Source of the DNA: Streptomyces phaeolivaceus
Lineage (GTDB): Bacteria; Actinomycetota; Actinomycetes; Streptomycetales; Streptomycetaceae
Direction of reading: 5' to 3'
NCBI RefSeq assembly: GCF_009184865.1
Contig: NZ_CP045096.1
Location: 7,626,001 to 7,690,000, forward strand
Length of the DNA stretch: 64,000 nucleotides
How positions within the stretch are numbered: position 1 is the stretch's first letter; each line of letters starts with the position of its first letter. Positions 15,759-18,946 of this stretch are shown piece by piece. The position numbers were made by a program, and so were the translations under genes. The notes under the pieces are model-generated. The model made no database searches. It saw only the letters and a program-made list of their open reading frames with translations, and was not told where the DNA came from.

Positions 15759-15787
15759 CTGACCAGCGGATTTCGAGTATGTATACG
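15759..15787 (+). promoter_or_regulatory. Candidate recG promoter
   Basis: CTGACC (15759-15764) and TATACG (15782-15787) are 17 bases apart. Transcription would start near 15794, downstream of the ATGs at 15779 and 15791, which favours ATG 15812 as the recG start with a very short leader. Confidence 0.4.
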
Positions 15788-15811
15788 GCAATGTCAGTGC
15801 CGTGGTGTGCA

Positions 15812-18800
15812 ATGGATCTCGTGCCCGCGCTCGAAGAACCGCTCAAGAACTCGCTCGGCGCCGCCACCGCGAAGGTGATGGCCGAGCACCTCGGCCTGCA
15901 CACCGTCGGGGACCTGCTGCACCACTACCCCCGCAGATACGAGGAGCGCGGCCAGCTCACCCACCTCGCCGACCTGCCGATGGACGAGCACGTCACGGTG
16001 GTCGCCCAGGTCGCCGACGCCCGTCTGCACAGCTTCGCCTCCGCCAAGGCGCCCCGGGGCAAGGGCCAGCGCCTGGAGGTCACCATCACCGACGGCAGCG
16101 GTCGCCTCCAGCTCGTCTTCTTCGGCAACGGCGTGCACAAACCCCACAAAGACCTCCTCCCCGGCACCCGTGCCCTCTTCTCCGGCAAGGTCTCCGTCTT
16201 CAACCGCCGCCTCCAACTCGCCCACCCGGCCTACGAACTGCTGCGCGGCGACGACGTCACGGAGACCGTCGACACCTGGGCCGGCGCCCTCATCCCGATC
16301 TACCCGGCCACCGCCAAACTGGAGTCCTGGAAGATCGCCAAGGCGGTCCAGACGGTCCTGCCGAGCGCCCAGGACGCCGTGGACCCCCTCCCCGAGTCGC
16401 TGCGGGAGGGCCGGGGCCTGGTCTCCCTCCCCGAAGCCCTCCTGAAGATCCACCGCCCGCACTCCAAGACGGACGTGGAGGGCGCCCGCGACCGCCTCAA
16501 GTGGGACGAGGCCTTCGTCCTCCAGGTCGCCCTGGCCCGCCGCCGCCACGCCGACGCCCAACTCCCCGCCGCCGCCCGCCGCCCCGCCCCCGAAGGCCTC
16601 CTCACCGCCTTCGACGCCCGCCTCCCCTTCACGCTCACCGACGGCCAGCGGAAGGTCTCCAAGGAGATCTTCGACGACCTGGCCACGGAACACCCGATGC
16701 ACCGCCTGCTCCAGGGCGAGGTGGGCTCCGGCAAGGCTCAGCCTCTCGACTCGCTGGTGCTCACTCCCGCCGGTTTCCGCCGGATGGGGGACTTGAGCGT
16801 GGGAGACGAGGTTGTCGTGCCCGACGGGGAGATCGCGGCGATCGACGGAGTCTTCCCACAAGGAGAGCGCGACGTCTGGAGGCTGGTGCTGTCCGACGGC
16901 AGCTCCGTCGAGTGCGACGACGAGCATCTCTGGATCGTCGGTACGAGCCGTGGGTGGCACCGAGGGCAGGAACCCAAGGTCATGACCGCTCGGGAGATCC
17001 GTTTCGACACCTTCGCGGCGGACGGATCATCCAAGTGGTACATCCCGGCCGCAACCCCTGTCGACCTCGGAGGCGATTCGGGACCGCCGTTGGATCCCTA
17101 CCTGTTCGGCCTGCTTCTCGGAGACGGCTCGTTCCGTCACAACCTGAGTTTCCCCACGGTCGACGAGGAGATCCGAGGGGCCGGCGGCGTCCGCAGTCCC
17201 GTGATCCAGACGCTGCGCGACCTGAACCTGTGGGGCCTCACGTCATACGGGAAGTTCGTGCCGGACGATTTCAAGAACACGTCGGTCAAGAACCGTCTGG
17301 CCCTGCTGCAAGGCCTTCTGGACACGGACGGCACCGTCCAGGCGGACGGTTTCGGCATCTCGCTCCGCTCGGCCTCGCGCAGGCTGGCGGACGACGTCGC
17401 CTGGCTCGTGCGATCGCTGGGTGGCCGTGCACGAGTTCTACCGAAGGGAGCCGCTTTCAACGTCTCGGTCGCCCTGCCCGAGGGGCACGCGCCCTTCCGG
17501 CTGACCCACAAGGCCGAACGCGTACGGAGCCGGCCGAAGGACAACACGTTTCGACGCGGAATCCGGGCCGTCGAGTACGTGGGCCGGAAACCGGTCCAGT
17601 GCATCAGCGTCGCCCACCCGAGCCATGCCTATGTCACGGACAACTTCACAGTCACCCACAACACCATGGTGGCCCTGCGCGCCATGCTCGCCGTCGTCGA
17701 CGCGGGTGGGCAGGCGGCGATGCTCGCGCCCACCGAGGTGCTCGCCCAGCAGCATCACCGGTCGGTGACCGAGATGATGGGGGAACTGGCCGAGGGCGGG
17801 ATGCTGGGCGGCACCGAGCACTCCACCAAGGTGGTGCTGCTCACCGGTTCGATGGGCGCCGCGGGCCGCCGTCAGGCACTGCTGGACCTGGTCACCGGCG
17901 AGGCCGGCATCGTCATCGGCACGCACGCGCTGATCGAGGACAAGGTGCGGTTCCACGATCTGGGCCTGGTCGTCGTGGACGAACAGCACCGCTTCGGCGT
18001 GGAACAGCGCGACGCCCTGCGTGGCAAGGGCAAACAGCCGCCCCACCTCCTCGTGATGACGGCCACCCCCATCCCGCGCACGGTCGCCATGACCGTCTTC
18101 GGCGACCTGGAGACCTCCGTCCTCGACCAGCTCCCCGCCGGCCGCTCACCCATCGCCAGCCATGTCGTCCCCGCCGCCGACAAGCCGCACTTCCTCGCCC
18201 GCGCCTGGGAGCGCGTCCGCGAGGAGGTGGAGAACGGCCACCAGGCGTACGTCGTCTGCCCCCGCATCGGGGACGAGGAGGACGACCCGAAGAAGGCGGG
18301 CCGGAAGTCCGCCGAGGACGAGGCCGAGAAGCGCCCGCCCCTCGCCGTCCTCGACATCGCCGACCAGCTGACCAAGGGCCCGCTCCAAGGCCTCAAGGTC
18401 GAGGTCCTGCACGGCCGGATGCACCCCGACGACAAGGACGCGGTCATGCGCCGCTTCGCCGCCGGCGAGACCCATGTCCTGGTCGCCACCACGGTCATCG
18501 AGGTAGGTGTGAACGTCCCGAACGCGACCGCCATGGTGATCATGGACGCCGACCGCTTCGGCGTCTCCCAGCTCCACCAGCTCCGCGGCCGGGTGGGCCG
18601 GGGATCGGCCGCAGGCCTCTGCCTCCTGGTCACCGAGATGCCGCCCGCCAGCGCCGCCCGCCAGCGCCTCAACGCCGTCGCCGCCACCCTCGACGGCTTC
18701 GCACTCTCCCGCATCGACCTCGAACAACGCCGCGAGGGCGACGTCCTCGGCCAGGCCCAGTCCGGCGCCCGCACCAGCCTGCGCATGCTCGCCGTCATCC

Positions 18801-18946
18801 AGGACGAGGAGATCATCGCGGAGGCGAGAGAGGAAGCGACGTCCCTGGTCGCCACCGACCCCGACCTCAACACCCTCCCCGGCCTGCGCACAGCCCTGGA
18901 CGCCCTCCTGGACGAGGAGCGGGAGCAGTACTTGGACAAGGGGTAG
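15812..18946 (+). CDS. recG: ATP-dependent DNA helicase RecG containing an in-frame intein
   Basis: A 1044-aa precursor, of which 309 residues are an intein (16736-17662), leaving a 735-aa RecG of normal length. RecG remodels stalled forks and Holliday junctions. The N-terminal wedge/OB region is followed by motif I GEVGSGK/T, split exactly between Lys and Thr by the intein. Then come TEVLAQQH, motif II VVVDEQHRFG (the DEQH variant expected for RecG), TATPIPRT, LHGRMHPDDK and the motif VI/TRG region QLHQLRGRVGRGS. Since the Walker A is interrupted, the helicase can only work after splicing. ATG 15812 begins the usual MDLVPALEEPLK. The frame is open further upstream to 15779, but a promoter-like element lies there. 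It is divergent from the HSP90-like gene. Confidence 0.95.
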   Translation: MDLVPALEEPLKNSLGAATAKVMAEHLGLHTVGDLLHHYPRRYEERGQLTHLADLPMDEHVTVVAQVADARLHSFASAKAPRGKGQRLEVTITDGSGRLQLVFFGNGVHKPHKDLLPGTRALFSGKVSVFNRRLQLAHPAYELLRGDDVTETVDTWAGALIPIYPATAKLESWKIAKAVQTVLPSAQDAVDPLPESLREGRGLVSLPEALLKIHRPHSKTDVEGARDRLKWDEAFVLQVALARRRHADAQLPAAARRPAPEGLLTAFDARLPFTLTDGQRKVSKEIFDDLATEHPMHRLLQGEVGSGKAQPLDSLVLTPAGFRRMGDLSVGDEVVVPDGEIAAIDGVFPQGERDVWRLVLSDGSSVECDDEHLWIVGTSRGWHRGQEPKVMTAREIRFDTFAADGSSKWYIPAATPVDLGGDSGPPLDPYLFGLLLGDGSFRHNLSFPTVDEEIRGAGGVRSPVIQTLRDLNLWGLTSYGKFVPDDFKNTSVKNRLALLQGLLDTDGTVQADGFGISLRSASRRLADDVAWLVRSLGGRARVLPKGAAFNVSVALPEGHAPFRLTHKAERVRSRPKDNTFRRGIRAVEYVGRKPVQCISVAHPSHAYVTDNFTVTHNTMVALRAMLAVVDAGGQAAMLAPTEVLAQQHHRSVTEMMGELAEGGMLGGTEHSTKVVLLTGSMGAAGRRQALLDLVTGEAGIVIGTHALIEDKVRFHDLGLVVVDEQHRFGVEQRDALRGKGKQPPHLLVMTATPIPRTVAMTVFGDLETSVLDQLPAGRSPIASHVVPAADKPHFLARAWERVREEVENGHQAYVVCPRIGDEEDDPKKAGRKSAEDEAEKRPPLAVLDIADQLTKGPLQGLKVEVLHGRMHPDDKDAVMRRFAAGETHVLVATTVIEVGVNVPNATAMVIMDADRFGVSQLHQLRGRVGRGSAAGLCLLVTEMPPASAARQRLNAVAATLDGFALSRIDLEQRREGDVLGQAQSGARTSLRMLAVIQDEEIIAEAREEATSLVATDPDLNTLPGLRTALDALLDEEREQYLDKG
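16736..17662 (+). other. Intein with LAGLIDADG endonuclease, inserted in RecG Walker A
   Basis: A 309-residue insertion beginning AQPLDSLVLTPAGFRRMGDL and ending VTDNFTVTHN, directly before the Thr of GSGKT. Block A starts with Ala instead of Cys/Ser. Block B reads ECDDEHLWIV with His64 and Trp66, block F has Cys289 in KPVQCISVAHPSHAYVTDNF, and block G has Thr307-His308-Asn309. The Trp/Cys/Thr triplet with a non-nucleophilic first residue is the hallmark of class 3 inteins, in which the block F Cys makes the first branched ester. The LAGLIDADG motifs are LFGLLLGDGSF (from about residue 123) and LALLQGLLDTDGTV (188-201), so a homing endonuclease may be active. Its base composition is a little less GC-rich than the flanking recG. 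Confidence 0.93.

Follow-up and report, generated by a model that had tools for sequence, protein, structure and literature searches.

The 64,000-nucleotide stretch of DNA analysed here (the window) carries an intein-containing recG gene, coding for an ATP-dependent DNA helicase, on the + strand at 15779..18946 (1055 codons plus stop). With the RecG equivalog NF008167, for which the cut-off is 995, the whole reading frame scored 1123.5 bits. The N-extein (15779..16735, +; translation may in fact begin downstream of 15779) ends with the Walker A motif up to the lysine (GEVGSGK), and the C-extein (17663..18943, +), as read from the sequence, has the Walker A threonine as its first (+1) residue. 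Between them, reading of the sequence and alignment to relatives placed an intein of 309 codons, Ala1 to Asn309 (16736..17662, +), which corresponds to RecG residues 320-628, is stop-free and in frame, and is preceded by LLQGEVGSGK and followed by TMVALRAMLA, the junction GEVGSGK/T thus falling between Lys and Thr. A preliminary description had reported a 309-codon in-frame insert at this junction, bearing Ala1, Trp66, Cys289, Thr307 and a His-Asn end, and all of these were found at the places claimed (insert residues 1, 66, 289, 307, 308 and 309 are A, W, C, T, H and N). Its figure of 735 residues for the remaining RecG fits a later start; counted from the first ATG, removal of the insert leaves 746 codons. 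An intein-less second copy of RecG was considered and rejected, as the genome itself showed, besides both RecG halves, only a 39% match (E 6e-22). The third-position GC of the insert is 0.822 vs 0.934 and 0.941 in the flanks, and it lay below that of the flanks in 80 of the 80 intein-bearing rows compared.

The sole Pfam match in the insert was LAGLIDADG_3 (3.8e-8, residues 187-231; threshold E 0.001). Among solved chains, the best phmmer match was the class 3 DnaB intein 6bs8 (2e-7); further matches were to other solved DnaB inteins of class 3, to gp41-1 inteins and, with weak scores, to PI-SceI-like chains. A HINT fold with N- and C-terminal splicing blocks was found both in the model of the insert, through its Foldseek matches to solved inteins, and through the sequence match to intein chains; the nearest structure was that of PI-SceI (1dfa, TMq 0.72), and 6bs8 matched with a TMt of 0.84. 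In passages of PMC5050341 and PMC5222942, class 3 inteins are defined by a position 1 without nucleophile, a W at B:12, a C at F:4 and a T at G:5. We found a non-nucleophilic position 1 (Ala1) together with the W-C-T triplet in 81 of 81 RecG inteins. In the window, the triplet consists of Trp66 in block B (16931..16933, +), with His64 two codons upstream, Cys289, the block F nucleophile (F:4; 17600..17602, +), and Thr307, which opens the block G sequence Thr307-His308-Asn309 (G:5 to G:7; 17654..17662, +), the latter two elements being assigned by alignment. W66, C289 and T307 align with the W, C and T of solved class 3 inteins, and W, C, T, H and N plus the block B His are invariant in an alignment of 35 sequences that includes 21 RecG inteins of Streptomyces. 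Judged by its sequence, the insert is an intein of the class 3 type, in agreement with the earlier proposal.

From this class membership we infer how splicing would proceed. In the precursor, which should not bind ATP before splicing, the Lys-Ala1 bond would be attacked by Cys289 to form the block F branched intermediate, a mechanism established for the class; the acyl group would then be transferred to Thr+1, and cyclisation of Asn309 would join the exteins and restore an intact GEVGSGKT. The joined RecG would yield a peptide spanning GEVGSGKTMVALR. Class 2-like chemistry, with direct attack by Thr+1, could operate instead of the class 3 route.

Insertion of class 3 inteins into P-loops is already known. 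The Mycobacterium inteins Msm DnaBi1 and Mch DnaB1 likewise have a non-nucleophilic first residue, the W-C-T triplet and a helicase P-loop site, and the solved DnaB inteins 6bs8, 6rix and 6riy match the window intein by sequence and fold. DnaBi1 is characterised, in the passages describing it, as a mini-intein in DnaB with Ser+1, whereas the window intein interrupts RecG, has Thr+1, retains most of a LAGLIDADG domain and has no Cys48 equivalent. Full-length Streptomyces RecG inteins (L005 and others, 338-339 aa) share host and site with that of the window but have a complete two-half LAGLIDADG domain. The inteins of Actinomadura RecG and of a RecG-like helicase carried by Rhodococcus plasmids lie at a GDVGxGK/T site, with Ala1 and a terminal THN, and show 47.5-50% identity; the plasmid-borne Rhodococcus intein has 353 aa, and 'RecG-like' is our reading of its flanks, the record naming a helicase-related protein. 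Class 3-type inteins of PhoH have the W, C, T and H-N at corresponding positions and 36-48% identity in three pieces, but occupy another host and site. RecG had earlier been described as not commonly cited as an intein host; the table of a 2018 review (PMC5874633) lists it among such hosts. A literature search, with most subscription journals and InBase outside its scope, gave, among the matches listed, no article dealing with RecG inteins of Streptomyces or with their class, and none was found for 'class 3 intein' together with RecG.

Two LAGLIDADG motifs are present in the insert, as previously noted: motif 1 (LFGLLLGDG; 17102..17128, +; predicted helix 121-129), with Asp130, and motif 2 (LQGLLDTDG; 17306..17332, +; predicted helix 184-198), with Asp198, the two aspartates being presumably the catalytic residues of the LAGLIDADG family. 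The accompanying claim of a homing endonuclease is not supported in that form: the domain exists, but its first half is short of 29 residues. With 309 codons, the window allele is 29 below the common 338-codon allele and 30 below the 339-codon one. Relative to the full-length L005 allele, 87 bp (29 codons) are deleted within the first LAGLIDADG half, with an approximate junction at 17175..17182 (+) according to DNA and protein alignment, and the rest of the intein is 91% identical to L005. In the AlphaFold model of L005 (pLDDT 93.8), the first half contains strands 138-140, 158-162 and 169-174 and a helix at 144-153, whereas the model of the window intein (pLDDT 91.9, pTM 0.90) has no first-half strand of three or more residues and only a helix at 144-147; the deleted stretch covers two of the three L005 strands. 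Both LAGLIDADG helices with their aspartates (D130, D198) appear in the window's model, but a DNA-binding beta-sheet in each half does not, the first-half strands modelled in L005 being missing. Because these 29 residues are lacking, the homing activity of the window allele is probably gone, though both presumed catalytic Asp remain. The retention of Asp130 and Asp198 and the 91% identity to L005 elsewhere would be compatible with some residual endonuclease activity.

A scan of GTDB species genomes yielded 141 encoding stretches, 80 of which were kept. All 80 carry, at the same K/T junction of RecG, a homologous insert that begins with A and ends in HN, and all but one, from Actinacidiphila, bear Streptomyces titles. 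In uninterrupted recG genes, K and T were adjacent, with zero bases between them, in 40 of 40 fetched genes, which had been chosen among listed contiguous matches. Both results speak against the insert being a chance feature. In a sample of 295 genomes of the genus, a related RecG intein was found in 55, the genomes beyond the 64 considered next being counted as empty by their best E-values among the matches listed. This figure derives from 64 genomes whose best match to the joined RecG flanks was weaker than 1e-100, leaving aside G001, G050 and G099, whose only match was near 1e-22, like the second, 39% locus of the window's own genome. In 45 of the 64, a match to the intein of the window at E<=1e-55 was present as well, and a further search of the remaining 19 gave ten with shorter, more divergent inteins at K/T, hence the total of 55. 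Among the other nine, G121, G205 and G058 were read as empty, G119 was read as frameshifted directly after GSGKTM, and G204, G157, G115, G148 and G072 were judged empty by a match that crosses the junction and by frames of 770-786 aa. For 13 of the 55 (G000, G013, G095 and the ten eroded alleles), the exact K/T junction was seen in the sequence; for the other 42 it was deduced from a split RecG match combined with an intein match. An intein-less RecG allele at the same site, whose existence had been raised as a question in the preliminary description, is found in most sampled genomes of the genus.

In a 118-genome sample of the class, four matches at E<=1e-45 were obtained, comprising three RecG inteins from the genus, among them that of the window, and one that we read as a PhoH intein. 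Distant relatives occur in RecG of Actinomadura (P0002, P0004), in the RecG-like helicase of the Rhodococcus plasmid at GDVGSGK/T, in other proteins at GK/T (P0006, P0008, P0030) and in PhoH. The Rhodococcus rhodochrous plasmid (L129:1103-4780), typed as mobilizable, has its 353-aa intein at K/T, and a tyrosine-type integrase gene adjoins the RecG-like helicase; it is a possible vehicle between genera. In a RecG-like fragment (P0003), a related intein ends in His-Lys, not His-Asn, before the Thr, and is possibly splicing-defective or a sequence error.

Among 81 aligned alleles, 72 are full-length (338-339 aa) and nine are short. Eight of the nine short alleles were compared by DNA and have different deletions (L063 and L079 share the 5-prime end), and the nine short alleles represent nine changes on a 121-row RecG tree in which L066 is included; such different deletions, each with its own change on the tree, point to decay and not to a compact design. 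Of the 55 alleles in the 295-genome sample, 34 measure 1014 or 1017 bp and are thus full-length. The other 21 have been shortened or eroded: ten were measured at 816-948 bp, that of G073 was deduced from frame length, and ten are remnants of 247-327 residues. A1, W, C at F:4 and THN are kept in the 11 shortened alleles aligned (the ten remnants and G013), and the splicing residues are kept in all alleles whose sequence was read. Eight of the ten remnants make up exactly one clade of eight on a 132-row recG tree (midpoint root), and the other two, G223 and G233, are placed elsewhere. There are point changes as well: of the 72 full-length alleles, 10 have another residue in place of Asp130 and 6 in place of Asp198. 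The eroded RecG intein of G233 (L147; 327 aa) has lost motif 1 and shows low-complexity Gly/His/Pro-rich stretches in the endonuclease region. Endonuclease erosion is frequent at the K/T site of recG. A relative-rate test on eight short alleles showed both parts evolving faster (110 vs 76 for the endonuclease and 58 vs 33 for the splicing parts), so the endonuclease was not singled out for relaxed constraint.

The distribution of the intein on the 121-row RecG tree required 31 changes, of which well-supported branches forced 24; when labels were shuffled the mean was 33.7, 88 of 500 shuffles being as low as 31. The 40 empty rows of this tree were hand-chosen among listed contiguous matches, and it includes L066 (Streptomyces phaeoluteigriseus), a doubtful row with a long branch. 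In L066, recG is apparently frameshifted just before the intein, by assembly error or as a pseudogene, the tblastn piece there running out in another frame, and this row was left out of the pS comparison, the flank tests, the rate test, the 132-row tree and the pN/pS medians. L024 and L029 have in-frame stops close to the 5-prime end of what was extracted, at codon 4 and codon 2 respectively; these were dropped for the 121-row alignment and, where inside the stretch, read as X in the 132-row tree.

Synonymous distances told the histories of intein and host apart in several pairs. Between L014 and L023, pS was 0.046 for the intein vs 0.254 for recG, and between L047 and L048 it was 0.042 vs 0.154; the reverse was seen for L067 and L069 (0.690 vs 0.099). 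From its patchy presence and these intein pairs, far closer or more distant than their RecG, the intein is, as the sequences indicate, mobile. Over all pairs, intein and recG synonymous distances correlate (Spearman 0.54), which argues that much of the inheritance is vertical. Intein-bearing and empty recG genes were compared for third-base usage over 736 columns. The largest and second largest differences lay at codons -3 and -7 relative to the junction, and in label shuffles the largest value was reached in 32 of 2000 and the second largest in 1 of 2000; the same two codons also led in a test among 380 codons, from which L066 and L073, the latter at a contig end, were left out. This signal would fit co-conversion or a preferred homing target. 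Bins of 15 codons, again without L066 and L073, showed no distinct flank peak (z 2.4 beside the site and up to 3.2 elsewhere), the favoured codons are absent from the window's own flank, and single transfer pairs, compared without gap handling, gave a co-conversion tract that was weak at best. A recent transfer of the window's copy is unsupported, recG pS (0.219) and intein pS (0.210) relative to L005 being alike. The nearest rows to the window by recG, L085 and L086, are empty, both having been chosen as best contiguous matches. Recent donors were sought and rejected in three pools: in 720 phage records all matches were below 60%, with the best 15 of 720 reaching 37.7% (top-ranked 37.0%); viral contigs gave two loci at 33-34%; and in 40 plasmid records all were below 60%, with 47.5% at the top.

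Taken together, we consider it very likely that the insert belongs to a class 3-type homing intein of the recG K/T site which, in this strain, is past its spreading phase, probably no longer cuts, is inherited vertically and is kept by the need for splicing. The deletion would have taken much of the first-half beta-sheet, with the probable consequences that empty sites are no longer cut and that inheritance is vertical; the intein would be kept because RecG needs splicing and exact removal is rare. That the insert might instead be dead and non-splicing, leaving the strain without RecG activity, appears extremely improbable: the endonuclease part is damaged and the case for splicing here is built on sequence comparison, but the splicing residues are all kept in the 81 aligned alleles and in the 11 further shortened ones, and recG pN/pS is no higher in intein-bearing strains than in empty ones. 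Median recG pN/pS was 0.139 in short/short, 0.150 in full/short and 0.165 in full/full intein-bearing pairs, 0.160 and 0.181 in pairs with one empty row and 0.202 in empty/empty pairs, all for pairs under pS 0.35 that are not independent. Within the intein, pN/pS was 0.142 in the splicing parts vs 0.254 in the endonuclease part. As RecG is under purifying selection in intein-bearing strains, these data suggest that splicing works there, and a non-splicing insertion or pseudogene was rejected on the strength of the conserved splicing residues and of selection on recG. Another reading is that the intein still homes with full activity and that its endonuclease is compact by nature. This reading could draw on the presence of Asp130 and Asp198 and on a second half intact in the model; we regard it as very unlikely, given the missing first-half strands and the decay-like pattern of the short alleles described above.

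A regulatory role has also to be weighed. In passages of PMC6195587, the class 3 intein DnaBi1 of M. smegmatis, located in the P-loop of another helicase, DnaB, is reported to be inhibited by oxidation through a Cys118-Cys48 disulfide. By analogy, RecG activity may depend on splicing conditions, and the window intein could be a domesticated regulatory element in which slow or redox-sensitive splicing by Cys289 keeps RecG inactive under stress, the benefit maintaining endonuclease-less forms. The only other cysteine, Cys60 (16913..16915, +), is a conceivable redox partner present in 81 of 81 aligned alleles, and the eight remnant genomes that form a whole clade indicate that remnants persist. 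Against this, the position of the DnaBi1 partner Cys48 aligns with Val47 of the window intein, one eroded allele, that of G191, has Ala instead of Cys60, the greater part of the genus sample is without intein (55 of 295 have one), presence shows no clustering on the RecG tree, and persistence without benefit is possible if exact removal is rare. We judge such domestication to be unlikely, although it and the preferred reading of a decayed, vertically inherited intein are not mutually exclusive. A broader version, in which the endonuclease has decayed many times independently and the remnants act as a splicing switch (Cys F:4 plus Cys60) gating ATP binding by RecG under stress, seems to us improbable as well.

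A homing-cycle model of spread, decay and loss is described in PMC1654191. The recG site is fixed, and within a single genus it can be seen empty or occupied by a full-length, partly deleted or remnant allele. This wide natural decay series is the useful part of the present system: it supplies many decay events, apparently independent, on which the homing-cycle model can be tested, and it allows one to ask whether inteins without endonuclease persist through constraint or through benefit. For the strain itself, annotation and expression of RecG must take splicing into account.

Other inteins were observed in the same genome. A class 3-type PhoH intein (L002; G000:C2:2964969-2966048, -) has, by our reading, Ser as its first residue and keeps W, C and T-H-N. 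A presumed ThyX (L127; G000:C2:7811396) contains an intein that starts with Cys and has an HNH-like stretch inside, and a LAGLIDADG-like intein, also starting with Cys, lies in a presumed RecA (L128; G000:C2:7894175), so that RecA and RecG would both be interrupted in this genome.
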